From NCBI GenBank assembly GCA_022750295.1, contig JAKIVZ010000019.1:1-39090 (forward strand): a DNA stretch of 39,090 nt. Reading direction: 5' to 3'. Under the pieces are notes generated by a model, which was given only the letters and a program-made list of their open reading frames with translations, made no database searches and had not been told where the DNA came from. Shown here in pieces: positions 33 to 15,277 of this stretch (the stretch's first letter is position 1; the number at the start of each line of letters is the position of its first letter). Both the position numbers and the translations under genes were made by a program. The DNA comes from Candidatus Lutacidiplasma silvani. Its GTDB lineage: Archaea; Thermoplasmatota; Thermoplasmata; Lutacidiplasmatales; UBA184.

Positions 33-3000
33 TTAGCCCAAGATGTCACAGGACGGATAGTTCGCGAGTTGCGTGAAGCTCGGACAAACGAACTTGAGGC
101 TCTCAATCGGCGGAGCGACAGAGACCTGATTACTGTTCAGAGTAGGCCACCACGAGGGGTTGGCCGATCCCGCCTGAGTCTGAGTAAGCGCGGTAAAGGA
201 GTACGTCCTGCCGACCGGAACACTTTGCAGTCCGCTCCCCTGAACGTATTCGGGAATCTTGTACGTCGTATTCGTCCAAGCCACGTTATAGTGTGTTCCG
301 CTGGAGGTTTGGTTAACCCAGGCGTCGGCGACGGCATAGATCGTGTTCTGCCACGAGATGTTGTCGTTCATAACGGCCGGATTTCCGTTGACCCCGGTGG
401 AATTCAGCGTCACGTTAGAGGGGAAGTAGCCGAGGCCAGTGGTGTAGGTCCCGCTCAGTGTCGTCGTGAACGTCTTGGGCCAACCGGTTGACGGGGTGAC
501 ACTCCGAGTGTAGTTCGTGAATCCGAAAGCACCCGGACAATAGTTTGTGCTTTGTTGCGTATCCTTGTAGGTTACCGTGACCTTCTCGATCCAGGTCCCA
601 TTGCGCAGACCCTTGAGGAGAGTCACGTAGATGTCCATGAGCTGTGTCAACGAGGTAAATGTGCTGACGGCAGTTGTCGTCCCGGCTTGGTTCTTGACGG
701 TCAGGTTCGTGGAGTAGATTGATGGGACATCTAGGTTCGAGGTTACTCCACAAACGGTCGTCGCATTGTACGCATTGTTAGTCGCACTGTACTTCGTCCA
801 GAAGACCCCGGAGGCGTTCAGGAAGATCGATCCCGGGTTGAGCGTCACCGGGAACACCTGAATCGCCGTTCCCTGCCCGTTTTGCCATTTCTGCCCCGTT
901 CCCGGGACGAACGCTCCGCCTTTCAGAGGAGGGGGAGAGTAGAGTCCCGTTACCCATGGCGGGATCGGCATTGAGCCGAGACCAACGGCCTCGAGCAGGT
1001 TGCTCGATTCGACTTCTAAGTAAATGTTGGCAGAAAATGGGCCGGTCGAGTCGAACAGGATTGAGCTGTCCAAACCCTCGGTGACCGTACACGAGGCGAT
1101 CGGAGGTCCCAACGCAACCGGGCCAGGCGCGAGATCTGTGATACTGGGGTACAAGCTGCCGAACGAGACCTGTTGGGAGAGACAAAGTCTGGACACATTT
1201 GTCGTGTCATTTTGTAGCTTCTGCAGCGTTACGTTTATGGATGCCCGGAAGGCGTGTAGCCCTGTCCCGCCGTATCGCTCGTAATCCGCGGGGACCGTGG
1301 CGTTGAACCCGCCGGCGATGGTTCTCAATGCAGAGTAGGCCGAGATGAACGCCCCGGTGTATCGGAAGTAGGACCAACCCCCCGTCGGGAGTGGGCCAGC
1401 GGGAGCGGTGGGTCCACCGCCTCCATAGGCAACAGCGCTAGTCCATCCGAACACGGCCCGCCCGAAAGGGTCGACCATGAGTGTCGGTGGGCCCGTCGCC
1501 AAGATTGTTCCGCCTGCGCTTCCGGAAATCGGCGTGGGCTGCGAAAGGAATACCCCCGAGGGCCAGTAGACTGCCTGATCGACCTGCCAGACCCCACCAG
1601 AATTCTCTCGCCAGGTCGCGTAAACGTAGCCCGCAGGGGAGACCGCAACCTCGGGATCACGGATCGACCCTTGGACATTCGTGGTCGAGTATGGCCCTCC
1701 CCAGGTTACTCCCCCATTTGAGGAACCTAGAGTTTCCGCGACGTACTGGCCGTTCAAGAATGTCGTGAAAAGCCCGAACACGGCCTGACCATAGGAGACG
1801 ACGGCGACTTGGCCGCTGGATCCGTTCGTGACAGACAGGCTGGTTTGCCCGATCGAGTTTCCTGGCGATGACGCGTTGAAAAGCGAGAAGCGGAAGATCT
1901 TCAGGGGAACAAAGGTCGCGGAGGTCGCGTTAAGGTGATAGAAAATGATCTTCGAGTCAGAGACATTGCTGGCCAGGATGCCGGCGGCGATTCCGACCCC
2001 GACCGAGTTGACGCCAGAGTAAGGACTGCCCCCGACAAAGACCGGTGCCGCAGCGACGGCCAAGGGCAGCGTCCAAGACTTTACCGTGAAGTTGACCAAC
2101 GGCGCTGGGTACTGGATCGAGAAGCGGTCCGCGCAAGTGAGGAGGCTCGACCCTGAGCTTTCCGAGACCTGGACTGGCACCGTTCCCTTCCCTAGGGGGA
2201 CCTCGACTTGGAGCAGCGTAGACGTCGAGTAGTAGACTTGCGGCGACGGGACACCGCCGAAAAACACCGTGGCGTTTGGCAGGAAGTTGTAGCCGGCGAT
2301 AATGTCGGACCCGAAGGACTTGTTCGCGGTCGGAGTCACCCACTCGATTTGCGGAGCCGCGGTTGGGGCGGCGGCACCGTACGTGAAATTGTCAGCGCAC
2401 GTAGTCGGGCTTGAGTATCCCGCTTGTCGCACGGTCACATTCACGGTTCCGGACCCCGTCGGTGCCGTGGCGGTTAGGAGAGTGGTGTTCGTGACGGTCA
2501 CGCCTGTCGACGCAGTCGACCCGAAGTAGACGGATGCATTTGGGAGGAAGTTCCTCCCTTCGATGATTGTGGACTGGCCAACCGGTCCCTGGTCCGGAGT
2601 TACTGAGATGATGGTCGGGATGGGTTGAATGGTGAACAGGTCGCAACTAGAGGTGGGGCTAGTCCCAACGGTAGTGGTTACGGTGACGTCGACCGAGCCA
2701 GCCCCGAGAGGGGCCGTTGCGTGTAGAACCCCTGGAGAAATGAGCGAGACCCCAGAGGCTGCTATCCCACCGAATTTGACGGTGGACGTGGCTCGGAAGT
2801 ACGCACCGTTGATTGTTACCGTGGATCCAGTAGCCCCGGTCGTCGGCGAAACCGACGAGACCTCGGGAGTATGGAGGGGCAGGGTGGGACCGTGAGTCAG
2901 GAAGCTGCCGCATATCACTGGGCTCTGTCGCCCGCCTGCGGTAACCTGAACAGGAAGCGTTCCCCACCCCGCGGGAACTGTCGCGCTGATTACGGTGGTG

Positions 3001-4217
3001 GAAATGACCGAGAAGGACGAGAGCACTCCCCCAAACGTGACCATCGTAACGCCAGAAAAGCCGGTCCCGTTGATCAAGACTAAAGTCGAATTTGCCGCTT
3101 GGGACGGAAGGAGGATCGAGACCGTCGGGGCTCCGCCGGATGGTGGATGACCTCCGCCTCCGCTGGGAGGGGACGGAGTAGGAGGCGGTGGCGGCGGATT
3201 CGATGTCTTTCCGCATGGCAGGGCATAGCGAGTGGCGATGAGGTTTGTGGCGGTGATGGTTGTCAATAATGCATAGCACGCGGTCACGGCGAGTTTGGGG
3301 AATCCCCCGCTAACCGGGGCGTTGCCAGTGAGGGTGAACCAGCTTCCGTTAGTTCCGTAATTGTACGAAAAGTAAAGCGAAGTCACGTTGCCCGAGGTCG
3401 CAGCGACGAACAGCCAACTGGCCCAGACGCCAATCGCATCTCCTTGGATGGCGTTGCCACCGTAGGCAGCTACTGGGACGGGCGAATTCCAGACGATTGG
3501 CAAGTGAGAATTACACGTCGTAGCACAAAAGCCAGTTTTGAAGATGCTCTGGGCGACCGAAGCATTGTACTGCCCTGTCTGGGTTTCGAGGATATTGCCA
3601 ATTCCAGGCACGGCGTTGGCGAACGCGAGTTCATAGACTGGAATCGACCCAACGATTTGACTCGCGAGCTGGGGAAATGTCACCGCTCCTGTCTCGTTCG
3701 GAAGCGTGTCGGGGGCCGGGAACGTATTGGTCGTCGCTAGGTAGGGGGCAAAAGCGGGCTTTCCGGAGGTGATCGGCGATGAATCCGAGGTTATCCGGCT
3801 CGACTGGCTCCGTAAACTAACAAGATTGGAGGATGACAGCACCAAGATTAGGACGATGAGGACCGGAACTGCGATCCGGAGTACGGGCCTTTGGAGTGGG
3901 CGTGAGTGGGAAAAGCCGGCAATCCAGCCTCGAGAACGGCCGGGGGTCGAGACCTCTGCAGAAGGCGGCGAACCCGGGGTCCTATCTTGAGTGGGGGGAC
4001 CGTTCGGGATGCGATAATTCCTTAGAAGTCGTCCTTGGCCGGCCAAGCTCTCCCTAACCTCCCCGGATTCCGCAGAAGAGACGGTCTTTGAGTTCGGGCC
4101 GAATGGAGACAAAAGGCCGGGTTGGGCGTGAGCGACAGCAACCTCCACAGGAACCTCAACCCGCGCAAGGGGTATTCGTGGATAAACCTCTGCACGGTCC
4201 GGCACGGCGTAACACAT
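33..4217 (-). CDS. Giant secreted/surface protein with IPT/TIG repeats
   Basis: This 1394-residue protein is predicted to be exported and surface-anchored or secreted; its function is unknown. A hydrophobic segment at about residues 113-132 (core AVPVLIVLILVL), after an arginine-rich stretch, looks like a signal anchor. A proline/glycine-rich linker lies near residue 350. It is followed by four consecutive IPT/TIG-type beta-sandwich repeats (about residues 365-690), each with a pattern like 'P.I..V.P..G..G..V.I.G..F...A.V.FGG', typical of archaeal and bacterial adhesive or carbohydrate-binding surface proteins. The rest is Ser/Thr/Asn-rich with many N-x-S/T sequons, and may contain a beta-propeller-like part around 700-950. 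Stop is TAA at 33-35. The ATG at 4217 gives an unusually long (about 110 residue) cytoplasmic leader, so the true start may be downstream at a non-ATG codon. No partner gene is adjacent. The open frame and repeats are clear; the role is not. Confidence 0.85.
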   Translation of the reverse strand: MCYAVPDRAEVYPRIPLARVEVPVEVAVAHAQPGLLSPFGPNSKTVSSAESGEVRESLAGQGRLLRNYRIPNGPPTQDRTPGSPPSAEVSTPGRSRGWIAGFSHSRPLQRPVLRIAVPVLIVLILVLSSSNLVSLRSQSSRITSDSSPITSGKPAFAPYLATTNTFPAPDTLPNETGAVTFPQLASQIVGSIPVYELAFANAVPGIGNILETQTGQYNASVAQSIFKTGFCATTCNSHLPIVWNSPVPVAAYGGNAIQGDAIGVWASWLFVAATSGNVTSLYFSYNYGTNGSWFTLTGNAPVSGGFPKLAVTACYALLTTITATNLIATRYALPCGKTSNPPPPPPTPSPPSGGGGHPPSGGAPTVSILLPSQAANSTLVLINGTGFSGVTMVTFGGVLSSFSVISTTVISATVPAGWGTLPVQVTAGGRQSPVICGSFLTHGPTLPLHTPEVSSVSPTTGATGSTVTINGAYFRATSTVKFGGIAASGVSLISPGVLHATAPLGAGSVDVTVTTTVGTSPTSSCDLFTIQPIPTIISVTPDQGPVGQSTIIEGRNFLPNASVYFGSTASTGVTVTNTTLLTATAPTGSGTVNVTVRQAGYSSPTTCADNFTYGAAAPTAAPQIEWVTPTANKSFGSDIIAGYNFLPNATVFFGGVPSPQVYYSTSTLLQVEVPLGKGTVPVQVSESSGSSLLTCADRFSIQYPAPLVNFTVKSWTLPLAVAAAPVFVGGSPYSGVNSVGVGIAAGILASNVSDSKIIFYHLNATSATFVPLKIFRFSLFNASSPGNSIGQTSLSVTNGSSGQVAVVSYGQAVFGLFTTFLNGQYVAETLGSSNGGVTWGGPYSTTNVQGSIRDPEVAVSPAGYVYATWRENSGGVWQVDQAVYWPSGVFLSQPTPISGSAGGTILATGPPTLMVDPFGRAVFGWTSAVAYGGGGPTAPAGPLPTGGWSYFRYTGAFISAYSALRTIAGGFNATVPADYERYGGTGLHAFRASINVTLQKLQNDTTNVSRLCLSQQVSFGSLYPSITDLAPGPVALGPPIASCTVTEGLDSSILFDSTGPFSANIYLEVESSNLLEAVGLGSMPIPPWVTGLYSPPPLKGGAFVPGTGQKWQNGQGTAIQVFPVTLNPGSIFLNASGVFWTKYSATNNAYNATTVCGVTSNLDVPSIYSTNLTVKNQAGTTTAVSTFTSLTQLMDIYVTLLKGLRNGTWIEKVTVTYKDTQQSTNYCPGAFGFTNYTRSVTPSTGWPKTFTTTLSGTYTTGLGYFPSNVTLNSTGVNGNPAVMNDNISWQNTIYAVADAWVNQTSSGTHYNVAWTNTTYKIPEYVQGSGLQSVPVGRTYSFTALTQTQAGSANPSWWPTLNSNQVSVAPPIESLKFVCPSFTQLANYPSCDILG

Positions 4218-4606
4218 CGCGGGTTCGGGTGCAAGTCAGAACTTCAGCCCATGATCGTACGGAGCAGTTCGCGACAGAGAAGGTAACCGACCATTGGGGA
4301 ACTAGCTGGTCGATCGAAGCCGGGGGCTGTGGTGACTAAGTGGGTCTGCGCTGTCTCCAACCGTTCGAAATCCCAAGAATCCCAACCGGATACGCATTCT
4401 CTCACGCAAAACAATTACAAACAGTGAAAAACTCGACCGGTCCTTCGAGAGAGAGATGAACCCCCAGCCCGCAACCCGTGCTACGCCGTAGCAAGGTGTT
4501 GGAGGAGGAAATTGGCGATCGAGGCGAAATGCGCGTCCGACGAACGTCGGGAAACGGCCACGGTCGACGTCTTCTGACCTAGGCCGGATCCCTTGGGGCG
4601 GGCGGG
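4218..4606. other. Intergenic stretch, no supported gene
   Basis: About 390 bp between the divergently placed giant surface-protein gene and the broken secreted-protein gene. It includes an A-rich patch near 4405-4435 that could hold promoter elements, but no convincing TATA box at a sensible distance from either start was seen. No coding frame with credible protein features was found. Confidence 0.4.
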
Positions 4607-5307
4607 GTGGTAGCCGTGTTCCTCCTGGCAGGTATGGTGTCGGCGCCTCCAGTACTGACGAAGGCGAACCGGGCCGCAGGTTGCAACGGCAACCCGTACC
4701 GAACGGACAACTGGCCAACACCCACCACCGGCTCCAGCGGGACCCTGCACACCCCGAATGTGGCCACACGGGGACCCTCGATCAGCAGGTGCGAGCCGTC
4801 TCGCCGCCAAGCCCGGGGAACATCCGGGAGGCGAGCTAGTTCATGGTCGGGCCGTCACCGTCGGGATGCTACACGCCTTCGACGACGCACGCCGGTCTCT
4901 TCGTGACGTACACCTGGCAGATCACGCTGACTCCGTACCTTGCAGCGAACTGCAGCGCTGACGGGGCCGCGAGGGCGAAAATCAACGCGACGGTGGCCTC
5001 GAACGTCCATATCGGCACAATCCCGTGGTACGTCGCACCAGGTGCAAGCGCAATCACGTTCACGATCCCAACGCACTCTGTGTCCTGCTCGAGCCCTGGA
5101 AGTGCGGTCTGGACCCCTGGACCCATCGTGTACGGCTCGTTCGTGCAGACCCTCGGACCGTGGACGGCGATCAGTGGAACGTCGTATGATTTCTACTCGT
5201 CCAACTGGGTCAACGCGACCAGGTCGTCCTCGACCACTGGGGCGACTGCGGTCTCCCAGGACACGACCACCGCGACCTTGCTTTTGGTGAACTGCGCGGC
5301 GTGCTGA
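4607..5307 (+). pseudogene. Broken secreted-protein gene (frameshifted remnant)
   Basis: Two overlapping reading frames together look like one exported protein. The first (from GTG 4607) opens with a hydrophobic run resembling the end of a signal peptide (VVAVFLLAGMVSAPP), then a Ser/Thr/Pro-rich stretch, and degenerates after about 60 codons into Arg-rich sequence. The second (ATG 4843, directly behind an in-frame TAG) gives 154 residues of Thr/Ser/Asn-rich extracellular-type sequence with Cys residues (for example SCSSPGSA, VNCAAC) and ends at TGA 5305-5307. The shift lies between about 4780 and 4843. The signal-peptide n-region is also missing, so the 5' end may be truncated. It could alternatively be a short intact gene from 4843 only. 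No family was recognised. Confidence 0.4.
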
Positions 5308-5336
5308 GCGGCCGACCCAGCAACTCCCCAAAGACT

Positions 5337-5370
5337 GCTCCCCCCGATTTCCGCGAGGATCGGGGGGAGC
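5337..5370. terminator. Perfect 12-bp stem-loop after the broken secreted gene
   Basis: Arms GCTCCCCCCGAT (5337-5348) and ATCGGGGGGAGC (5359-5370) are exact reverse complements around a 10-nt loop, starting 29 nt after the TGA at 5307. It could be a transcription end or processing structure for the upstream gene. No T-run follows, and archaeal termination usually depends on T-runs rather than hairpins, so an RNA-stability or protein-binding site is an alternative. Confidence 0.45.
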
Positions 5371-5595
5371 GAACCAATTCCTTGCGTATGCAACAGCAAA
5401 GGCGGTCGGCCGGGGTGGAGCTGACCGCGGTCTGATAAGACCCACCGACGGACCGTCCTGTCCGAAGAACTCCTTGCCGCCTGCCTGCCAAACTATTGGG
5501 CACCTCACCCATCAGCTAGACGGTGAGACAATTCCCCAAAGAGCCCCGGACGGCGTTGAAAACGCAACGGTCCGGGACCTCCCCGGTCGCCCGTC

Positions 5596-6003
5596 GTGAA
5601 GACGACTCGGCGCAGTCTGAAAACGGATCGGGGGACGGCCGTCAACAATCGCGTCACCTTCACCGACCGCTTCGAGGCGGACGATGTGACCGATTTGATT
5701 CGGCAGATTCACCGACCAGGAGTTCCCATCGGCCTTATTGATGTGATTCGATACCGTGCTGTGGGACTCGAAGGGATACCCGTACTGATAGTCGGCATCG
5801 TATCGATTGCGGTGGGAGTGCTCTTTTTCGCCACGCTGCCCGGTTCCCTGATTTTCTTTGTGGGGTTGGGAATTCTGCTCGTTGGGGGAGGAGCGGCTCT
5901 GCTGGGGGCCCTCCCTGTGCTGGAGTTTCTCGGGCCCATGGGAGCAATCGTGCTCCTGATTGGACTGTATATTGCGCACGCAGCCGGAACCCTCCCCTTC
6001 TGA
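5596..6003 (+). CDS. Small membrane protein, three predicted TM helices
   Basis: A 135-residue protein of unknown function. The first 60 residues are soluble and charged (contains RFEADDVTDLIRQIHRPG). They are followed by three close hydrophobic segments at roughly residues 62-80, 82-105 and 113-130 with many Gly/Leu/Val residues. The GTG start at 5596 is the only reasonable upstream start in this frame; the first internal ATG lies in the last helix. It ends 14 nt before the next small membrane protein, so the two are probably co-transcribed. No family was recognised. Confidence 0.6.
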   Translation: MKTTRRSLKTDRGTAVNNRVTFTDRFEADDVTDLIRQIHRPGVPIGLIDVIRYRAVGLEGIPVLIVGIVSIAVGVLFFATLPGSLIFFVGLGILLVGGGAALLGALPVLEFLGPMGAIVLLIGLYIAHAAGTLPF

Positions 6004-6017
6004 CCGGCTACGAGTGA

Positions 6018-6404
6018 ATGGTCGAGCTGAGCCGGAAGGTGCCGGATGCGGAACAACCTGAGCTACGGTGGTTACGGCTCATTCTCGGGCTGATTGGCGG
6101 GGCCTCCCTAGTTTTCAACCTGATGGTGATCATCAACCACCTCCCCGCATTCAAGAACTGGGGGCCACTAGCGATTTCATTGTACAGCGCGGACGCGGAG
6201 ATCGGAATCGTAATCGGCGGACTTTACGCATTGGTGTACGAATTGGGAAAGCGGCCTACGAAGCAAGTCCCTGAGAGACGGTCCGAGATCGCCTCGCGAC
6301 CGGACCCGGTCGTAAGTCAGCCCGCCGAGCTACCCGAGAATCAGACCGAGAGCTATTCGAAGGAGTCCGATGACCACCACGGCTCCGATTCGGGGCCTGG
6401 GTAG
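6018..6404 (+). CDS. Small membrane protein with acidic, polar C-terminal tail
   Basis: A 128-residue protein with two predicted TM segments (about residues 20-43 and 52-76), then a charged, disordered tail rich in Pro, Glu, Ser, Asp and His (for example SDDHHGSDSGPG at the end). It starts at ATG 6018, 14 nt after the stop of the preceding membrane-protein gene, which suggests a two-gene transcript. Function unknown; no motif recognised. Confidence 0.6.
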   Translation: MVELSRKVPDAEQPELRWLRLILGLIGGASLVFNLMVIINHLPAFKNWGPLAISLYSADAEIGIVIGGLYALVYELGKRPTKQVPERRSEIASRPDPVVSQPAELPENQTESYSKESDDHHGSDSGPG

Positions 6405-7026
6405 GGTGGAGGACAAAGTTTTGGTTTGGACTTGCTCACCTTGGATGTTGCGCCTCTCCTCGAGTCAGGCCACCCAGTACTTTCAAGATCCTTTCAGGAA
6501 CGGGCCGTATGCCCCCCCCCCTTTTCGACGGAAAGTGTCCCTTTTCGAGGAATGGCTCAAATACCCTTTCGCTCCTAGAAGGAAATAGCCCGACGGCAGT
6601 CGGGTCAGGACGGCCTCTCACGGGCGGTCCGGGTCGCAACCCGATTCCTGCCCCCCTCCCAAGGGGGTCCGGTGTGGGCGGGTTGCGACCTCTGGGTGTG
6701 TGTGGGTGTGGCTACTCCTAGTACATGAACGATTGGGGCTTAAGCGTATCCCGTCGTAAGCCGGTCTGTCGGGCTGGACGCGACGAGTCTATGATTTCCG
6801 ACGGTGGGCGAGAAGAGTCCCACGCTGGGCGGAGACCCGCCGCCGGGCGAAGGCGATCCGCGGCCCCGCCCTGTCTTCGTCGACTCTGGTCCTGGAGGAT
6901 ATGCCGACCCCGGAGACCGCCTCATGGTCTTAAGGCTGGATTCAGCCCGCGGTGGGTCTCAGGCAGCGAACCCGCCCCTCTACGTAGCGCCACCGGTGCC
7001 CACCATGACCCGCCCGCCGTCGGGAA
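6405..7026. other. Gene-poor stretch
   Basis: No credible protein-coding frame was seen here. It contains a C10 run near 6512-6521, two nearby copies of CCCTTTTCGA (about 6519-6548), and the inverted repeat at 6632-6690 listed separately. The following 300 bp are GC-rich with short open frames on both strands that lack recognisable protein features. It may be decayed accessory DNA. Confidence 0.4.
6632..6690. repeat. Nested inverted repeat, possible structured RNA or mobile-element end
   Basis: GGTCGCAACCCG (6632-6643) and CGGGTTGCGACC (6679-6690) are perfect 12-bp complements separated by 35 nt. Inside the loop, CCCCCT and AGGGGG around CCCA give a second stem. It lies outside any gene in the gene-poor part of the accessory region. 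A structured small RNA, a foldback or an IS-end remnant are possible; nothing decides between them. Confidence 0.45.
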
Positions 7027-7601: not shown

Positions 7602-8735
7602 TTGCCGACGCTCGTCCAGCTACGTCCCCTCGAAACTGAGCTGGCGGAGCATTCGATCCTCCGACCCGCCGGTCCGGTCGGCGTGCTCAAGACCCTGGGG
7701 GACGCGGTACGGAGGTCGAAGAACGTCGAGTTGATTCGATTGTACGATGGGACGCACAATTCGCTCGAGAAGATCTACGCGGAGAACTCCGACCGCTGGG
7801 TCATCACGTTCTCGGGCGGAAAGGACAGCACCCTCACGCTGGCCCTCGCCCTCGACTTTCTTCGACTCAAGCCGAAGTGTCCGCGCATTGACGTCGTGTA
7901 CGCGGATACGATGATGGAAATCCCGGCGATGCGCCGAACGGCCAGCTCAATGCTGTCATACATCCGAAAGTTCGCGCGAGAGAATCGGATGCCGATCCGA
8001 GTCCATGAGGTCGTTCCGGCCGTTGAGCGTAGGTACTGGGTTTGCGTCATCGGAAGGGGCTACCCGCCGCCTAAGCCCAAGTTTAGGTGGTGTACCAAGC
8101 GGCTCAAGATCGAGCCGGCGGAGGGTTACGTCGACACTGGGGAGCCTACTGCGGTTCTCACCGGCGTTCGATTCGGTGAAAGTGCCCAGAGGACTGGCCG
8201 CTTGCTCGCTTCATGCGCGACGGGAGGCGAGTGCGGGCAGGACTTTTGGTTCCAGAGGAAGAACGGGTCCGAGTTCGTGACTTACTATGCGCCGATTATC
8301 CAATGGAAGACCTGCAACGTCTGGGACTTCCTAACCTTCGTGGCACCCGGCGCCGCCTGGCCGACCGGTGAAGTCGTCGGACTTTACGGGGATACGAATA
8401 TGCGGTTCGGCTGCTGGACTTGCACCCTTGTCCGCCGGGACAAGACAATGGAGGCGCTTGCTCTGCGAGACCCATCCTCTCCAATCGGGAAGCTGAACGA
8501 GTTCCGTAACCAGATGCTCGAAGAGAGCAAGCTGTGGCGGAATCGTTGGGCCCGGACGAGGGCCGGCGTCCGCCGGAAGGGTCCCCTATCCCTCGCGTTC
8601 AGAATTGACCTCCTCCGCCGACTTAAACTCCTCGAACTCGAGACTGGTCTCGATCTTATCACCGAAGAGGACGAGCATGCGATTAGGCGGCTCTGGGCTC
8701 TCCTCCCTCGTCGAGCTAGGTCCGCACTCGGCTAA
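7602..8735 (+). CDS. DndC-like PAPS-reductase-family protein (candidate DNA sulfur modification/defence)
   Basis: A 377-residue adenine-nucleotide alpha-hydrolase / PAPS-reductase superfamily protein. The PP-loop SGGKDST is at residues 71-77 behind a hydrophobic strand (WVITF). RWCTKRLKI (Cys164) and TGVRFGES (187-194) follow, then RFGCWTCTLVRRDK (Cys271, Cys274), which matches the region of DndC that holds iron-sulfur cysteines. DndC-family enzymes activate the DNA backbone with ATP and pass sulfur to it in phosphorothioation; whether this one modifies DNA is not shown. It uses TTG at 7602; the next in-frame option is a GTG near 7683. Its 3' end overlaps the opposing ATPase gene by 4 nt. No dndB, dndD, dndE, dndA or ssp genes are in the window. 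BREX and other defence systems also use PAPS-reductase homologues, so the exact family needs a profile search. Confidence 0.8.
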   Translation: MPTLVQLRPLETELAEHSILRPAGPVGVLKTLGDAVRRSKNVELIRLYDGTHNSLEKIYAENSDRWVITFSGGKDSTLTLALALDFLRLKPKCPRIDVVYADTMMEIPAMRRTASSMLSYIRKFARENRMPIRVHEVVPAVERRYWVCVIGRGYPPPKPKFRWCTKRLKIEPAEGYVDTGEPTAVLTGVRFGESAQRTGRLLASCATGGECGQDFWFQRKNGSEFVTYYAPIIQWKTCNVWDFLTFVAPGAAWPTGEVVGLYGDTNMRFGCWTCTLVRRDKTMEALALRDPSSPIGKLNEFRNQMLEESKLWRNRWARTRAGVRRKGPLSLAFRIDLLRRLKLLELETGLDLITEEDEHAIRRLWALLPRRARSALG

Positions 8736-10447
8736 ACGATGGACGCGAGGGCGTCCGCGAACATTCGCCGAAGCTCGGCTGGGCGCGAACTCTGGCCCAG
8801 GGCGCGGTGAGCGGCAAGGATAACGCCGGCGAGAACAGGATTGTCCAGTTCAGGCGACATATCGACGGTCTTCGTCGAGTCATTCACCAGCAGGAGGGTG
8901 CGTTTGCCGCTAGGGTAGGCCGAGATGCTACGGTAGTCCGCCTTAATCCCGGAACCGAACGGCTTCGGTCTTGGACTGCCTCGGGGTACTTTGGCCGGAG
9001 TCGACTCGAAGTGAGCAGCGTACGATAGGCCCGCCCGCTTAGCGTAGTGCTCCGTCTTGCGCTCCTGTTCGTCCTTCCTAATCTCTCGCTTGATTCCCCT
9101 CCGACGCTTGGACCTTGCTGTCGATGCGGACTTTGCCTGCTGCGAAAGTCCCGGTTCCCCCGACGTACCCGGTCCGATCCAGGTGAAGACTGCCTTCTGC
9201 AGTTCGCGGTACTCTGGGTCCAACTCCATGAATCCTGACCTGTCGAGGTTAAGGGCGTCATCAAGGCCTGCGTCGATGTACAGTTCTCCGGAGACACTGA
9301 CCCTGAATATGGGATTCTCGGTACGGATTCCTTTGAAGAAGGAGTTCTCGTAGCCCCCGATCCCCACGTCGGATACCCTCGGGTACAGCCCCCTGAGCTC
9401 CAACGGAGTTACTCGGTTGGGTTGGTATAGTAGGTAGCCGGTGGCAGTCACCGGGCGTTCGCTCGTCGCCCCGAGATTGAACTCCCGAGTCCACACCTTC
9501 ACGTCCTCGCCGAGCGAGGCGTCGTATTGGTCCACCGTTGAACTGACCTTCTTTGGAGTCGGAAGCAGGATCGGCTTCCTGACTTCTACACCATCGAAGA
9601 TCAGTTTGAACCCGAGGGTGGCGGCGCGATCCCGAAGACGTCGAATCACCGGCCGTGTCGTTGTGTTGAGAAACTCATCAGCAATTGGCCCGTCTGGGAG
9701 GTACTCCACCGGGCACATCAAACCGAGTTCCCAAAGTATCTGCTCGCGCCCGGGAAGGCTCTCCATAGTCAAGACGCCCGAATCCGCAAACTTCCTCACC
9801 AGCCCCTCCATCGCCTGTCCGCTGTCCTGCTCCGGACCAGACGGCCATGCAACCGACGATTCGCCCGGGCTGGAGATCATCGCGTGGAAGGCCTCGCGAA
9901 GGTCCACACGGTCCAAGATCACGTCAGTCCCGCGCCGGTGATCATCGTTCGTGAGCTTCCTGTACTTGACGGTTCCAAATTGGAACGAGTCCAGGGGATG
10001 CACTTGGTTCACGAATTCGAAATACGGATTAAGATCTAGGGAAACTTCGAGGCCGGGCTTGTCCCGGTCGACGAAGGATTGGATTAGGATGTCCCTGCTC
10101 GCGTGGGCGCAAGAGAGGATGCCGATTCCAAACTTGCCGACCAATCTTCGCGCCCGATTGCCGCCGAACCTCTCCGGAAAGGTAACCTTCTGGCTCGCCC
10201 CGATGCTCCGGAACGATTTCTCCACGGACTCCCGGGTCATCCCGAGTCCATCGTCCCTGATGCGGATCGTACGGAACTCCGGGGCCCCGGTGTCAATCGT
10301 GACCCGCGTCGCCTGCGAGTCGAACGAATTGCTCACCAACTCTCTCAGCGGGCCGGCCGGTCGTCGGTAGATTCCGGAGCTGATGTGCTTAATGATTCGA
10401 AGGGCGACCTCGATGTCGAAGACCTTGTCCCAATCGTCCTTCGTCAT
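8732..10447 (-). CDS. GHKL (HSP90/MutL-like) ATPase
   Basis: A 571-residue protein with an N-terminal GHKL ATPase fold. The N-box LRELVSN gives the catalytic Glu36 and Mg-binding Asn40. RDDGLGM (64-70) is the DxGxG motif, and GKFGIGILS (104-112) is the glycine-rich lid motif. The rest resembles the middle region of HSP90-like ATPases found near restriction and defence genes, ending in a Lys/Arg-rich linker (about 430-470) and a short C-terminal helical part. I chose ATG 10447 because it forms an ATGA overlap with the stop of the upstream gene; an in-frame ATG at 10462 is possible. It should be translated with the DUF4145-like protein, and converges tail to tail with the DndC-like gene. Role inferred: ATP-driven conformational switch or effector partner. 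Confidence 0.8.
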   Translation of the reverse strand: MTKDDWDKVFDIEVALRIIKHISSGIYRRPAGPLRELVSNSFDSQATRVTIDTGAPEFRTIRIRDDGLGMTRESVEKSFRSIGASQKVTFPERFGGNRARRLVGKFGIGILSCAHASRDILIQSFVDRDKPGLEVSLDLNPYFEFVNQVHPLDSFQFGTVKYRKLTNDDHRRGTDVILDRVDLREAFHAMISSPGESSVAWPSGPEQDSGQAMEGLVRKFADSGVLTMESLPGREQILWELGLMCPVEYLPDGPIADEFLNTTTRPVIRRLRDRAATLGFKLIFDGVEVRKPILLPTPKKVSSTVDQYDASLGEDVKVWTREFNLGATSERPVTATGYLLYQPNRVTPLELRGLYPRVSDVGIGGYENSFFKGIRTENPIFRVSVSGELYIDAGLDDALNLDRSGFMELDPEYRELQKAVFTWIGPGTSGEPGLSQQAKSASTARSKRRRGIKREIRKDEQERKTEHYAKRAGLSYAAHFESTPAKVPRGSPRPKPFGSGIKADYRSISAYPSGKRTLLLVNDSTKTVDMSPELDNPVLAGVILAAHRALGQSSRPAELRRMFADALASIV

Positions 10448-11085
10448 TCTGCGCGGCCCCATCCCGTCGTGAGGCGGACGATCTCTTCGAGGTGATCCAG
10501 ATCCTCAAGGACATTCCCAGTCGTGAATGGTCGCTGTCGATTCTGAGGGTAGATCCGGGGGTGAGCCGCGGTATCCCCGAGAGCCATGATATTGCCGAGA
10601 TAATCGCAGATTCTATCACGTACCTCCGTTGCCATCACACCCTCTCCGGCCCGAACTCGATCAATCATCGGCTTAAACCGGTCCAGGCTCTGGTCGTCAG
10701 TGGGATCTCGCAGGATTTGGTGAGCCAGGAACAGCTCGGCCCCGACGCGCACCAGCACTGCCGCTCCCCGGGTCGCGCCCCTATGTAGGTAGTCCGTTGC
10801 CGCCGAAAGAAGGTCCGCAATCTCCGCCGATACTCCTCCCTCGGCACGCATCTCCGAACAGTAGCCATATACGCGGGGCTCAGACTCCTTGACGACCCGG
10901 CCCTTCTCGTAGAGGAATACCCTGGGGCGTCGGCAACCCTCGCACTCGAACTCGAATTTGAGGGCAAAGTCCGACGCCTTAGGGGGAAGGACCTCCTCCA
11001 CCGTCGAACACGGGGGGTACGGGCAAGCGCTGGCGAAGATTTGCCGGCCGGCGGACTCCCGCTCATCGGCTTGGGGCATTGCCAT
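10444..11085 (-). CDS. Zn-finger / DUF4145-like protein, partner of the GHKL ATPase
   Basis: A 213-residue protein. The N-terminal part has Cys21, Cys26, Cys48 and Cys51 (CPYPPC and CEGC), a likely zinc site. The C-terminal 120 residues are helical with the pattern of DUF4145: an 'R.GAELFL' helix, a helix around IDRV..GEGV, and a final GN/GD..AAHP motif (MALGDTAAHP). DUF4145 domains occur as accessory or effector domains in restriction and other defence loci, though their biochemical role is poorly defined. Stop TGA 10446-10444 overlaps the ATPase start (ATGA), so the two proteins probably form one functional unit. Start is ATG 11085, with ATG 11079 as an alternative. No convincing TATA box was found just upstream. 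Confidence 0.68.
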   Translation of the reverse strand: MAMPQADERESAGRQIFASACPYPPCSTVEEVLPPKASDFALKFEFECEGCRRPRVFLYEKGRVVKESEPRVYGYCSEMRAEGGVSAEIADLLSAATDYLHRGATRGAAVLVRVGAELFLAHQILRDPTDDQSLDRFKPMIDRVRAGEGVMATEVRDRICDYLGNIMALGDTAAHPRIYPQNRQRPFTTGNVLEDLDHLEEIVRLTTGWGRAE

Positions 11086-11608: not shown

Positions 11609-12091
11609 ATGACGAAGGTTGTACGCGTGCCCGTACCGGGGCACAGGGGAGAGTTCGTCGAACTCGTCGACCACTCGCCGAGAGAAGTGAGGGAGTTTCT
11701 CCGCGAGTATTTCGGATCAGTGTCAACCCGGCCGTCGGAACCGAGATCCCCCGCCGACCGGATTCCGACGGAGGCGATCGTCGATGCCCTGGCAGAACCG
11801 GATCCTGCCGCGCGAAGGACCGCCCCCAAGTGGCAGTCCGTCCTGATCTACCTCAACCACCTCGATCCGTCGAACGGATCTACTCATACGACCGAGGACG
11901 TCTTCCGGAAGTTCTTCGGCCGCAAGCTCTCGTACGTCACTGAGAAGAGTCTTGCTAAGGCTACAGGCACCACGCTCCGCAAGGCCCACCGACAATTCGC
12001 GATTAACCACCCTGGCGGGAGCTGGATCGGTGAGGGCGTCGGCGCCCGAAACCGAGGGGGAACGACTCGCTGGAGATTCTTGTATGCTTAG
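11609..12091 (+). CDS. Orphan 160-residue protein adjoining a tRNA gene
   Basis: I do not recognise this protein. It begins at ATG 11609 and ends at TAG 12091, only 8 nt before the tRNA-like gene. The N-terminal half is acidic and Pro/Arg-rich, and looks disordered around residues 35-70. The C-terminal 90 residues look like a compact basic helical domain (PKWQSVLIYLNHL, then TTEDVFRKFFGRKL), ending with aromatic and basic residues (TTRWRFLYA). A winged-helix or other DNA-binding fold is possible but no diagnostic motif was seen. Its location against a tRNA gene fits cargo of an integrated element, as inference. Confidence 0.55.
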   Translation: MTKVVRVPVPGHRGEFVELVDHSPREVREFLREYFGSVSTRPSEPRSPADRIPTEAIVDALAEPDPAARRTAPKWQSVLIYLNHLDPSNGSTHTTEDVFRKFFGRKLSYVTEKSLAKATGTTLRKAHRQFAINHPGGSWIGEGVGARNRGGTTRWRFLYA

Positions 12092-12099
12092 GGGAGGAA

Positions 12100-12184
12100 G
12101 GCGGCGTAGCCTAGCTCGGCAGGGCGACTGCCTGAAGAGCAGCTCGTGCACCACACAGCGTGGGTTCAAATCCCACCGCCGCCA
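12100..12184 (+). tRNA. tRNA-Phe(GAA)-like gene with enlarged variable region
   Basis: An 85-nt cloverleaf. The acceptor stem GGCGGCG/CGCCGCC is perfect. The D-arm has GCCT..GGGC with GG in the loop. The anticodon loop CTGAAGA gives anticodon GAA with U33 and G37, as in Phe tRNAs. The T-arm GTGGG-TTCAAAT-CCCAC is perfect, and the discriminator is A. Oddities: position 27-43 is an A-C mismatch, and 16 nt (TCGTGCACCACACAGC) lie between the anticodon stem and T stem where a Phe tRNA should have about 5. This could be a small intron at a non-canonical position (archaeal splicing) or a type-II-like variable arm (GTG-CACCA-CAC can pair). A decayed tRNA is the other possibility. Confidence 0.75.
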
Positions 12185-12678
12185 CCCTCCCCATATGGCG
12201 CGGATCCGACGAATCCGAGTTGCTAGACCGCCGCCCCGTCGGGACCCGCTCCAAGTAACCTGACAACGCCCCAGTTAAAACGAGTTTTTATCCAAATCCA
12301 TTGCCCAAATGCCGAAATCAATTCCGGCGTTCAAGTGTACGTCGCAGTGTACACCCCCAATTGCACATTATGTGTACCGGGCATAACGACCCTTTACTAC
12401 GCGCCTACAGGGAGTCGCCGGCCAGGACCCGAAGCAATCCCACGCTTGCGGATGGCGGGTCTTGACGGTTCGCTCCAGTCTGGACCGCGAGGGTCTCGCG
12501 CCCGACCTTCCGTTCGGCGGAAAAAATCATGGACGATCCCGGAACGGCCCGAACTCGTTGTCAAACCCAGCCGGGTTCGTGGGCCGGTCCCGGATTGGAG
12601 GAACCGTTGAGTCGCTGCATCGATGACGAGAAGAATCCGAGATCTCGTCTTGGAGCCTTCCCGGAAAGTTCGCCACCG
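12185..12678. other. Intergenic stretch with AT-rich promoter-like patch
   Basis: About 490 bp between the tRNA and the ribbon-helix-helix gene, whose 3' end it faces. GTTTTTATCC at 12284-12293 is a good archaeal TATA box in a local A/T-rich patch, predicting a plus-strand transcript from about 12318. Three GTGTAC motifs follow. The open frame beginning at GTG 12335 has no convincing protein features, so a non-coding transcript or a lost gene is possible. Confidence 0.4.
12335..12377. repeat. Cluster of three GTGTAC motifs
   Basis: GTGTAC occurs at 12335-12340, 12347-12352 and 12372-12377. The first two are 12 bp apart start to start, and the second is part of the palindrome GTGTACAC. All lie within 45 bp downstream of a TATA-like box (12284-12293). 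They could be operator half-sites; this is a pattern observation only. Confidence 0.3.
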
Positions 12679-13413
12679 TCAACGTCCGCGGCGCTGTTTT
12701 GGGCTTCGAGAGCGGTGAGGCCTCCGCTTGGAACTGGAAGTCTTTGGGTGCTTCGGACTCGGTCGGTTAGATCCGAAGACGACGGGGAGCGGTAGCCCCA
12801 TGTCCTTCGCATCCGGCGGGGTGCCGAACTTTTTTCGTTGCTCTCGAAGAATGTCGAAGGCGTCGAGTATCTCCTCTGTCGTCCTGCCCCGGAACTCGAA
12901 GAGGGGAATCTCCTGCTGGTCGACCGCGAGGGTGCCGGTATCGGTCCAGGTGAGTTCCTCCTTTTTCGGAGGGATCTTCCCCGTACGCAGGTACCAATCG
13001 AAGACCCGAACCGCCATCTCCTGGTCCCTGATACCGGCCTCCGCGGCGTGGACTCGGGCCGTGGTCAGAAGGTACCGGGGGAGGCGAACCGTGAAGCTGC
13101 GGCCCTTCGAGGAAAGATAGTCGGGTAGGGGCTTGTCCCAGAGTTCGTCGGGCCAGACGTGCCCCCCCAGCAAACTCGGCGGGGGCCGGCCGCCGAGGAA
13201 GAGTAGGAAGGCGTGCTCGGACAGAATCTGAATCGTAGATCGTATGGAACGCAGCTTTAGCTCGATGACGAGCTCGGTCGGAAGTCGTGTTGTGAACGCA
13301 ACTCGTTCGGACTCGTACTTCTCGAATTCGCTCAGGGGGAGAGGGGGGTACGACTCCCCTTCACCTTCGGTAGCGGGCGCGGACTCTGTCTTCGACGCTT
13401 TCGACGGCGGAAT
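12679..13413 (-). CDS. Tandem ribbon-helix-helix protein (apparent 5' frameshift)
   Basis: This frame carries two ribbon-helix-helix-like units. The first (about 13325-13215) reads RVAFTTRLPTELVIELKLRS followed by a second helix ending in AFLLFL; the second (about 13105-12980) contains RSFTVRLPRYLLTTARVHA and ends VFDWYLRTG. Each has the short basic strand (F-T-x-R-L-P) that inserts into the DNA groove, plus two helices. One chain could therefore replace the usual dimer. The C-terminus is Lys/Arg/Ser-rich. No ATG, GTG or TTG lies upstream of TTG 13173 in this frame, and starting there would lose the first unit. An ATG at 13454, in the centre of a 20-bp palindrome, joins the frame if one G is added to the run at 13425-13428. 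The start given here (ATT 13413) is a placeholder for the conserved reading. Likely a DNA-binding autoregulator. Confidence 0.55.
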   Translation of the reverse strand: MPPSKASKTESAPATEGEGESYPPLPLSEFEKYESERVAFTTRLPTELVIELKLRSIRSTIQILSEHAFLLFLGGRPPPSLLGGHVWPDELWDKPLPDYLSSKGRSFTVRLPRYLLTTARVHAAEAGIRDQEMAVRVFDWYLRTGKIPPKKEELTWTDTGTLAVDQQEIPLFEFRGRTTEEILDAFDILREQRKKFGTPPDAKDMGLPLPVVFGSNRPSPKHPKTSSSKRRPHRSRSPKQRRGR

Positions 13414-13463: not shown

Positions 13464-13626
13464 GGGGGAACATTACGAATCCGCTCTTCCGGGAGTTCGG
13501 ACTGTAAGACTTCCGGCTCTCGGACAAGTCGGCAATTCGAGCGGGTAATCCCCCGCTGGGCGTCGGTGCGCCGATGAACATGCCCGACGAGCGTGACTCC
13601 GCGGACCCGGGGGAAGCCCCGCTTCC

Positions 13627-13860
13627 CTACGGATCGGCCCGCCGCTTCCCCTTCCCTCGCCCGGACTCAGGCGAATCCGAGTCGACTGCAACGGATCCCC
13701 GTCTGACCGTGGCCGATCGGGACGCGACGTCAACTTCCCAACTCAGCGAGTCCCCGGGCTCTAGCCCCAGTACCGTCGCCACTCCGAGAGGAACCGTCGT
13801 CTTGAGCGACCCCGAAGCCGGTGCCGCTTTGAAAACCTTGGACGCGAACTCTCTCCCCAC
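13627..13860 (-). CDS. AbrB/MazE-like DNA-binding protein
   Basis: A 77-residue protein matching the swapped-hairpin AbrB domain: KTTVPLGVATVLGLEPGD is the typical 'vPk.v...LgLk.GD' core, followed by a strand pair LSWEVDV..RSATVRRG. The tail is acidic then Lys/Arg-rich. Such proteins are transition-state regulators or antitoxins; no toxin gene is adjacent. It starts at GTG 13860, with a strong minus-strand TATA box (CTTATATG, 13895-13902) about 35 nt upstream. A plus-strand frame runs through it in continuity with the transposase, but the AbrB motif and promoter make the minus strand the real gene. Confidence 0.72.
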   Translation of the reverse strand: MGREFASKVFKAAPASGSLKTTVPLGVATVLGLEPGDSLSWEVDVASRSATVRRGSVAVDSDSPESGRGKGKRRADP

Positions 13861-13893
13861 GAACTACGCCCCCGGAAGAGGCAGGTCGATGGG

Positions 13894-13902
13894 GCATATA
13901 AG
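13894..13902 (-). promoter_or_regulatory. TATA box of the AbrB-like gene
   Basis: GCATATAAG on the plus strand reads CTTATATGC on the minus strand, a good archaeal box A centred about 38 nt before GTG 13860. It may also serve the divergent transposase, which has another AT-rich element (ACTTAAGTA) at about 13936-13944. Confidence 0.5.
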
Positions 13903-13975
13903 CGGTCTATCGAGAGGTCGTAGGATAGAACTAACACTTAAGTACTGGGCTACATATGGGCCTAACAATAGACCT

Positions 13976-15277
13976 ATGTCGGGGACGAGGGGACCTTGGG
14001 ACGAAGCGACCGAGGTTCGGGCGATCAATCTGGCGACCTCCCACCGACGCGCAGTGCGCCCGAACGGCCGGGTGAGCTTCAACGTCGAGTCATCCGACGG
14101 AGAGCACGAGTACTCAGTCACGGCGGACGATAGCGGCTGGAGTTGCGATTGTCCGGTTTGGACCGAGCGGAAGAGCCCCTGCAAGCACGTCGTCGCGGTC
14201 GTGAAGTGGCTCGATCCGAACCCTCCGCCCATCATCGACGAGGAGATGGAGGCGGCTCGCAAGACCTACCGGCACCCCGACTGGGGCCGGTACGATGAAG
14301 CTCTCCAGCAAGAGCACCAAGTATTCGACCGTCTCCTCTGGGATCTGCTCGGACTCGTCCGGGAGCCTCTGCGCGAGGTCGGAAGGCCCGGTCGCCCGGC
14401 GATCCCCCTGCGTACGCAGATTCTGGTCGCGACCCGGAAGGTCCACCTGGGCCAATCGAACCGCCGGGCGCGGGGACTTCTCGTCGCCTTGAACCGGGAC
14501 GGGAAAGGGATCCTCCCCCGTGTTCCGAACTACAGTGCACCTTCCCGTTTCTTCAACGCCCCCGGGGCTGGGGAACTCCTACTCGGGCTCGTCGAGCGGA
14601 GCGGACTCGTTCTGAAGGATATCGAAGACCGGGGCACCTCGGCGATCGACTCGTCCGGGTTTTGCACGACGAACCGCGGGGCCTACCTGACCGAAGTCCA
14701 CGATCCCGACCGACGGCACAAGTGGCTGAAAGCGCACGTCATCGTCGGCGTCAAGACCCACATCGTCCTCTCCGCTTCGATCACCGACGAGCACGGGGCG
14801 GACTACTCCCAATTCATCCCGCTGCTCAAGCGAGTCAAATTCGCCGGCCACAATCCGCGCTACATCGTCGCCGACAAAGCCTACCTCGGGAGGTCGAACT
14901 TCGACGCCGCCGCGGGCTTGGGAATCGAGCCGTACATCCCGTTCAAAATCAACAGCCGGGGTCTGTCCAAGGGCGCTCCTCTCTGGAACCGCAAGTACCA
15001 CGAGTTCCTCTCCAAGAGAGACGAGTTCGACGAGCGTTACCATCAGCGGAGCAACGTCGAAGCCACGTTCTCGGCGATCAAGCGGAAGCTCGGCGAGCCG
15101 CTCTTCTCCCGGACTCCCGAGGCCCAGGTTTGCGAGGTTTTGGCAAAGATCCTCGCCTACAACGTTGGGATCGTGATCAAGGAGTCCTGCCTCCACGATC
15201 TGGCTCCGGGTCCGATTGGATACAGCGTTCTCCCCTGGAAAGGGAACGGTGGAGAGTCCGAGGAGGCGGCGGCATGA
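13976..15277 (+). CDS. DDE transposase with N-terminal SWIM zinc finger
   Basis: A 433-residue transposase of the IS4/IS5-like DDE superfamily. An N-terminal SWIM-type zinc finger (CxCx9CxH: Cys57, Cys59, Cys69, His71 in CDCPVWTERKSPCKHV) precedes a helical linker and the RNase-H-like catalytic core: Asp225 in SAIDSSGF, Asp300 in IVADKAYLG, and Glu362 in RSNVEATFSAIKRKLGE. The catalytic triad is complete and the frame intact, so it may be active. I chose ATG 13976 because upstream in-frame codons (ATG 13889 and ATG 13574) run through the AbrB promoter and coding region, and an AT-rich box (ACTTAAGTA, 13936-13944) sits at about the right distance. No terminal inverted repeats were found between 13863 and 15540, so the insertion-sequence limits are undefined. 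Confidence 0.82.
   Translation: MSGTRGPWDEATEVRAINLATSHRRAVRPNGRVSFNVESSDGEHEYSVTADDSGWSCDCPVWTERKSPCKHVVAVVKWLDPNPPPIIDEEMEAARKTYRHPDWGRYDEALQQEHQVFDRLLWDLLGLVREPLREVGRPGRPAIPLRTQILVATRKVHLGQSNRRARGLLVALNRDGKGILPRVPNYSAPSRFFNAPGAGELLLGLVERSGLVLKDIEDRGTSAIDSSGFCTTNRGAYLTEVHDPDRRHKWLKAHVIVGVKTHIVLSASITDEHGADYSQFIPLLKRVKFAGHNPRYIVADKAYLGRSNFDAAAGLGIEPYIPFKINSRGLSKGAPLWNRKYHEFLSKRDEFDERYHQRSNVEATFSAIKRKLGEPLFSRTPEAQVCEVLAKILAYNVGIVIKESCLHDLAPGPIGYSVLPWKGNGGESEEAAA

Follow-up and report, generated by a model that had tools for sequence, protein, structure and literature searches.

The window analysed here is a stretch of 39,090 nucleotides (nt) of the archaeon Candidatus Lutacidiplasma silvani (contig JAKIVZ010000019.1, positions 1 to 39,090); its source contig (C3, genome G000) is part of a 2.1-Mb draft genome that is 91% complete. 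An earlier note, made from the sequence alone, had picked out three genes at 7602-11085 as a candidate self-contained module for defence or DNA modification: a DndC-like sulfur-transfer gene, a gene for a GHKL ATPase and a gene for a zinc protein. The three genes and their junctions are laid out as follows (lengths of products in amino acids, aa):

7602-8735, plus strand: PP-loop sulfurtransferase, DndC-like, with cysteines of the 'SC...ECG' type; 377 aa, starting at TTG
8732-8735: 4-nt overlap between the 3' ends of the DndC-like and GHKL genes
8732-10462, minus strand: ATPase of the GHKL type (MORC/paraMORC-like); 571 aa if translated from the likely start, 10447, and 576 aa from the longest
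10444-10447, minus strand: ATGA junction of the small gene and the GHKL gene, at the alignment-supported GHKL start
10444-11085, minus strand: small cysteine-rich protein, 213 aa, two Cys pairs (zinc-ribbon-like), helical C-terminal part

The TAA stop of the DndC-like gene (8733-8735, plus strand) overlaps the TAG stop of the GHKL gene (8732-8734, minus strand), which confirmed the 4-nt convergence described earlier. The longest GHKL open reading frame (ORF) starts at 10462 and overlaps the upstream small gene by 19 nt. A start at 10447 was favoured because the methionine it encodes (M6) is invariant in an alignment with the homologues of two other genomes, G248, a relative in the window's own genus, and G1369, which belongs to the same class and another family; with this start the stop of the small gene and the GHKL start form an exact ATGA, so the junction claimed in the earlier note holds.

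Both sequence motifs reported for the DndC-like protein, SGGKDST in the PP-loop and RFGCWTCT, are present in the reading frame at 7602-8735. The protein matched PF01507 (PAPS_reduct) in Pfam at 6.3e-10, DndC in PADLOC at 3.9e-57, phrog_12882 ('PAPS reductase') in PHROGs at 1.4e-39 and PRK06850 at 5.6e-56, the last under the cut-off of that model. Against TIGR03183, the DndC model, the window protein scored 181.7 bits and the G248 copy 169.4 bits, both below the equivalog cut-off of 290.4. Matches to the SspD model (4.8e-11) and the BrxP model (1.2e-9) were weak, as were those to NcsA and TtcA (E 0.091 and 0.21). A role in sulfate assimilation was rejected, the CysD matches (0.00093 and 0.024) comparing with 2.2e-53 for DndC; DndC-type models were by far the best, and the relation to DndC rather than to a sulfate-assimilation family was borne out. 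Outside the module the closest relative found was gene 3 of the Thermus phage Tsatsa, which matched at 44% across 73% of the length, and related viral contigs carry DndC-like relatives at 43%.

The PP-loop SGGKDST and the cysteines C164, C271 and C274 are unchanged across the three copies of the enzyme (window, G248 and G1369). In an alignment of 61 rows, those three columns are Cys in every row; of 63 possible rows, L187 (extracted ORF shorter than 200 aa) and L178 (misread frame) were left out, and 38 of 68 viral loci had no match at E 1e-12 and were not entered. According to the accessible text of PMC12193691, the 4Fe-4S ligands of DndC from E. coli B7A are Cys146, Cys280 and Cys283; C164, C271 and C274 appear to match these by the text of that paper and by column order, no B7A sequence being in the alignment. 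Two further columns, which by our own assignment from the same paper and the alignment would be Cys262 and Cys273 of the B7A enzyme and are here called the dyad, separate two types of enzyme. Both dyad columns are Cys in 33 of the 61 rows, and 24 rows have Cys at window positions 205 and 211 (the SC...ECG pair). The pair and the full dyad never occur together, although one SC...ECG row (L182) has Cys at one dyad column, and 4 of the 61 rows have neither pair. Both dyad columns are non-Cys in all three module rows. At C238, 13 of the 24 SC...ECG rows have Cys; G1369 does not.

The two types also differ in what lies beside them. DndD adjoins 17 of the 33 dyad rows, two of the four rows with neither pair (L165 and L168, the DndD-adjacent rows without the dyad) and none of the 24 SC...ECG rows, of which eight were seen with only 1.5 kb per side; some viral sequences also stop close to the gene. 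In a first tree of 44 rows, from which 16 duplicate or near-identical entries had been removed beforehand, a branch with 97/90 support separated all 13 DndD-adjacent rows from the window and G248. A second tree, built from the 61 rows by a quick method (both trees are unrooted), joined the window, G248 and G1369 rows in one clade (SH-aLRT 95), which is nested in a set of 14 that also contains Thermus phage rows and phage/plasmid rows (97), and placed every DndD-adjacent row inside another set of 35 (85). Score, tree branch and cysteines together ruled out canonical DndC. Judged from its sequence, the enzyme is related to DndC, has a different type of cysteines and is not DndC proper, so that the label given to it in the earlier note stood for the relationship and failed at the TIGR03183 cut-off and in the type of cysteines.

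The GHKL protein matched HATPase_c_3 in Pfam at 2.9e-11, and its residues 15-185 matched NF050001, the model of the BbrUII/HgiDII restriction enzymes, at 1.2e-17 (63.7 bits, cut-off 550). The residues of the N, G1 and G2 motifs of GHKL proteins are intact and invariant in the three copies. No nuclease domain (Pfam, E 1) and no S5-type Pfam match was detected in the window protein, and its structure model (pLDDT 39.3) was discarded as unusable.

The small protein does carry two cysteine pairs, CPYPPC and CEGC, as the earlier description of a DUF4145-like zinc protein implied; the family assignment found no counterpart, there being no DUF4145 match in Pfam up to E 1. The sole Pfam match was DUF4844 (E 0.0054, under the cut-off), PADLOC gave nothing, and NCBIfam and PHROGs gave E 0.06 or worse. 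G248 has a homologue with 26-28% identity, reciprocal comparisons giving E 1.8e-9 and 6.9e-6. In a model built from these two sequences (pLDDT 58.6), beta structure at the N-terminus is combined with a bundle of helices. The top three Foldseek matches of the model in the PDB were HEPN structures (1o3u and, twice, the sacsin HEPN 3o10; E 0.53-1.3), 1o3u having E 0.53 and the 3o10 matches spanning E 0.92-1.8, none of them significant; a search of a viral fold library gave nothing useful. A HEPN-like fold is at present a lead, only weakly supported. The catalytic motif of HEPN proteins, Rx4-6H (PMC3710099), lacks its Arg in both copies (IMALGDTAAH in the window, IHNLGDSAAH in G248). The gene at the corresponding position in G1369 likewise has no DUF4145 match in Pfam, and its start region spans two overlapping frames.

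The pair of GHKL and DndC-like genes recurs. A GHKL search of 250 genomes of the class gave some match at E 0.001 in 109 of them, and only in G000 and G248 did it cover most of the length. Within the family (103 genomes), the DndC-like profile was found in two, G000 and G248, and the GHKL profile in three: these two, where most of the profile is covered, and G508, which matches at positions 15-137 only. Seven of 390 genomes of the class matched the DndC-like profile at E 1e-20, with 803.9 bits for G000 and 907.8 for G248 (both of which built the profile), 269.0 for G1369 and 104-132 for the other four, which are placed elsewhere in the trees. The convergent pair is present in all three genomes among the 390 that have the DndC-like clade of the module; as the window is itself one of them, the co-occurrence proposed in the earlier note was supported by two independent cases, G248 and G1369. 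In G248 the two reading frames converge and overlap by 101 nt at their ends, and in G1369 they converge 17 nt apart (ends at 8363 and 8381 of L202). The G1369 proteins are 26% (GHKL, E 6e-35) and 45% (DndC-like, over 304 columns) identical to those of the window. It is thus the pair that is conserved in three genomes; for the small gene, counted earlier as the third part of the module, homology could be demonstrated in two of the three.

Wider searches did not extend this distribution. In the phylum of the window (389 genomes) seven genomes matched the DndC-like protein of the window at E 1e-10, the window's own being the only member of the module clade, and G248 and G1369 were not in the match list of that search. 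In the phylum of G566 (398 genomes) 17 genomes matched, the best at 144.8 bits, and this GHKL lay within 1.5 kb at none of 18 loci; in that of G567 (350 genomes) only G567 itself matched the GHKL profile at E 1e-25. Viral contigs searched with two-row GHKL and DndC-like alignments gave nothing, and with wider alignments 68 DndC-like and 25 GHKL loci, the module pair being in none of those that were compared. The viral contig L071 was rejected as a fourth case, its DndC-like protein being of the dyad type and its GHKL matching that of the window in the N-terminal domain only. At 2088-6999 this contig has, one after another, genes for a GHKL of the BbrUII/HgiDII type (186 bits), for a C5 methylase, for a small protein and for the dyad-type DndC-like protein; the GHKL has a sub-cut-off match to the C-terminal part of Shedu.

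Relatives of the GHKL protein were identified in G248, G1369, L034, L035, L132 and L133. On genome contigs the GHKL search found 17 loci, with matches extending beyond the N-terminal domain only in L034, L035 and L036 (which is G248), and among plasmids and phages it found 9 and 2 records with the N-terminal part only. Outside the class, relatives over most of the length are encoded in a Bathyarchaeota genome (L034), a Chloroflexota genome (L035) and the viral contigs L132 and L133. At all four the next gene is of the PP_RS20740 type (two over the cut-off, two under), and at three of the four there are DNA methylases, confirmed by Pfam: a C5 methylase beside the GHKL gene in both viral contigs, together with a Vsr endonuclease in L133, and two N6/N4 methylases with a ResIII helicase in L035. 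The loci with the GHKL and PP_RS20740-type genes, which look like a separate system resembling restriction-modification, are:

L034: 7968-10603
L035: 6023-14765
L132: 5407-9725
L133: 4850-9766

The DndC-like profile (E 1e-10) matched none of the four genomes of L034, L035, L041 and L044. Members of one GHKL family are thus partnered either by a PP_RS20740-type gene, usually with a methylase, or by a DndC-like gene. MORC-like GHKL proteins have been described, in the text of PMC2292703 available to us, as parts of restriction-modification systems together with cytosine methylases and Vsr nucleases.

The surroundings of the three copies differ. In 40 kb of the G248 contig, no match at E 1e-5 was found to any window ORF of at least 80 aa outside the module, the small gene being all that the two loci share beyond the pair; among ORFs of at least 90 aa in 18 kb of G1369, only the GHKL and DndC-like ones matched the window or the G248 stretch. 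Likely defence neighbours were seen at two of the three loci. In G248 the module adjoins a Type I restriction-modification set, and in G1369 its neighbours encode one SIR2-like/TPR and one NB-ARC/TPR protein and include integrase-like and transposase-like genes; the G1369 copy lies between the latter two (L202: 3389-17156), perhaps in a small defence island. Just upstream of the G248 copy, L032: 6369-7151 gave a weak PD-(D/E)xK match (E 0.02, under the cut-off); this ORF could be the missing nuclease, and no counterpart was matched in the window. That the pair recurs in two further archaea, with other genes around it, suggests a mobile unit for defence or DNA marking that has no name so far and lacks the usual partners of phosphorothioation beside it.

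The tRNA and transposase genes that were thought to flank the module in the window are both nearby, on one side of it only:

12100-12186: tRNA-Phe, 87 nt, right of the module
13574-15277: SWIM/DDE transposase, right of the module

The tRNA is longer than usual and possibly contains an intron. Integration at this tRNA was rejected, no second tRNA-Phe 3' end with up to 3 mismatches being found in the window; repeats in the 4-16 kb region amount to two direct-repeat pairs (26-30 nt, 77%) and two short inverted pairs. The GC content of the module is 0.603 and its third-position GC 0.69-0.74, against 0.945 for the DnaK gene (15.5-17.5 kb), and eight further sampled loci of the genome have a total GC of 0.66-0.73; compared with those loci, the module fits an acquired segment. 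Along the window GC climbs, in the region of the DnaK gene (15500-37000), from about 0.61 to about 0.71, and the contig's left 15 kb may have been acquired. Between the module and the transposase, the ORFs 11609-12091 (160 aa) and 12679-13173 (164 aa) had no Pfam, PADLOC or NCBIfam match at E 1. At 33-4217 there is a 1394-aa ORF with four IPT/TIG stretches (PF01833, 3e-23), probably a surface protein.

The absence of Dnd components, on which the proposal of a self-contained module had leaned, was confirmed: DndA, DndB, DndD and DndE proteins from up to three Dnd loci gave no tblastn hit (E 1e-3) in the window, the 40 kb of G248 or the 18 kb of G1369, and the same queries detected the control locus L173. 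Carried to the whole genomes, as the earlier note had advised, the search was less decisive. All matches of the DndD model in G000 and G248 lay under its cut-off (26.5 bits at best, 245.85 being required), the same result as in 9 of 14 control genomes, and DndE gave no match in either genome or in the control genomes.

Taken together, a quite possible though tentative interpretation is that the locus is a mobile unit for conflict over nucleic acids, resembling a restriction-modification system, in which the DndC-like enzyme would be the marker and the GHKL and small proteins the other arm. It is read in this way, with the sulfurtransferase at the methylase's place, because DNA methylases adjoin GHKL relatives at three of the four outside loci. 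The precedent of Type-4 BREX, in which a PAPS-reductase apparatus replaces the methylase according to the accessible part of PMC12839542, the methylases and described role of the GHKL kin (PMC2292703) and the defence neighbours are the reasons for proposing steps of sulfur marking and restriction. A DndC-like enzyme of this kind would activate its substrate with ATP at the PP-loop, hold sulfur near a 4Fe-4S cluster and the SC...ECG cysteines and pass it to a nucleic acid, most likely DNA. The sulfur would be supplied by a cellular cysteine desulfurase. Class V aminotransferases, the superfamily to which cysteine desulfurases belong, gave six matches in G000, five over the cut-off and two of them very strong. 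The GHKL protein would work as a clamp driven by ATP, with the small zinc protein as its coupled partner, and the two may act against unmarked DNA or control an effector encoded elsewhere; the unit as a whole would then serve in defence.

Several observations weigh against this interpretation. There are three instances only, and at one of them, G1369, the gene at the position of the small gene is not detectably homologous. No nuclease was recognised among the three genes of the window, which also show no DNA methylase or helicase; at the Bathyarchaeota locus no methylase was noticed among the listed ORFs. DndC and SspD work with a partner of the DndD/DndE or SspB/SspC type, as described in the part of PMC12707154 available, and no such partner was seen, no search having been aimed at Ssp partners. 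The SC...ECG rows do not form one clade in the second tree, ten archaeal rows standing apart, and close phage relatives of the DndC-like enzyme lack this GHKL in the stretches fetched, which argues that the enzyme can function without it.

A more specific proposal, and an unlikely one, is that the DndC-like enzyme of the SC...ECG type puts a sulfur mark on DNA independently of Dnd and Ssp, without an ABC ATPase or DndE, with a MORC-type GHKL and a HEPN-derived zinc adaptor reading the mark. If the acceptor were instead RNA (a tRNA) or a nucleotide, thiolated by the DndC-like enzyme in a unit of defence or toxin-antitoxin character, the GHKL/HEPN-like pair would sense or respond to that change. 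Such a unit would agree with the tRNA thiolases known among PP-loop enzymes, with the weak NcsA and TtcA matches and with the HEPN structures that head the fold matches of the small protein, HEPN families having RNase activity in most cases (PMC3710099, in the text accessible). We consider it rather improbable, however, as DndC-type models are by far the best family matches, the catalytic Arg is missing from both copies and DNA methylases adjoin the GHKL relatives at three of four loci. The DndC-like gene could also be a passenger or a single gene of phage origin, protecting for example the DNA of an element, beside a GHKL and small gene that form a separate defence system. The nearest outside relatives, on Thermus phage Tsatsa and viral contigs without this GHKL, speak for such an origin, as does the neighbouring phage/plasmid clade, 4 of whose 8 rows have a methylase within 5 kb (a count from a limited query set, in which three of the four are the query-source loci). 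Yet the tail-to-tail pair has been kept in three genomes of two families while its surroundings changed, and the GHKL-partnered DndC-like enzymes are one clade, so the passenger explanation also seems improbable to us. Most remote is that the locus is the remnant or one part of a split Dnd or Ssp phosphorothioation system whose remaining genes lie elsewhere in the genome. The homology to DndC would allow this, partners could be missing from a draft that is 91% complete, and the DndE search found nothing in the control genomes either; the enzyme, though, belongs to the other cysteine type and tree branch, and the DndD matches of G000 and G248 stay under the cut-off, as in 9 of the 14 controls.

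The literature search found no paper describing a GHKL/DndC-like pair, with most subscription papers and bioRxiv preprints outside its scope. The pair joins two families, the DndC-like sulfurtransferases and the MORC-type GHKL ATPases, that are unconnected in the literature found. If it is a modification and restriction set, it would add a further sulfur-based route of DNA marking beside Dnd, Ssp and Type-4 BREX, and it would give a testable role to phage 'PAPS reductases' with the same cysteine signature; if marking is in addition independent of Dnd and Ssp, the GHKL protein would be the engine of a sulfur-based system of self/non-self recognition in archaea.

Set beside known systems, the window enzyme shares with DndC (TIGR03183) the SGGKDST loop, the equivalents of C164, C271 and C274, the RFGCWTCT motif and a G(K/R)GYP...FRWCT block. 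It differs in its length (377 aa, the 13 DndD-adjacent rows having 375-538 aa), in having the SC...ECG pair in place of the dyad, in its branch outside the DndD-adjacent rows and in the lack of a DndD or DndE match near the module; DndD and DndE are the core pair of Dnd systems in the available text of PMC10853773. With the 'PAPS reductase' genes of phages and plasmids it has in common the SC...ECG cysteines and the tree set, and they are its nearest outside relatives, but those genes lack this GHKL family in the fetched stretches. The GHKL protein resembles the MORC/paraMORC proteins of restriction-modification systems and BbrUII/HgiDII in its N-terminal domain, and its kin stand beside methylases and once beside Vsr; the NF050001 match, however, is confined to that domain and lies far below the cut-off, and the window gene adjoins a sulfurtransferase and no methylase. 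Type-4 BREX and SspABCD (BrxP, SspD) offer a PAPS-reductase-like enzyme at the place of a methylase, and BrxP, like the window enzyme, has no DndC dyad as far as the accessible text of PMC12839542 goes, whereas the matches to the BrxP and SspD models themselves are weak. The GHKL type of Shedu (VcSduA), described in the available part of PMC12137116, likewise places a GHKL ATPase in an anti-phage protein, from which the window GHKL differs in having no matched nuclease domain.

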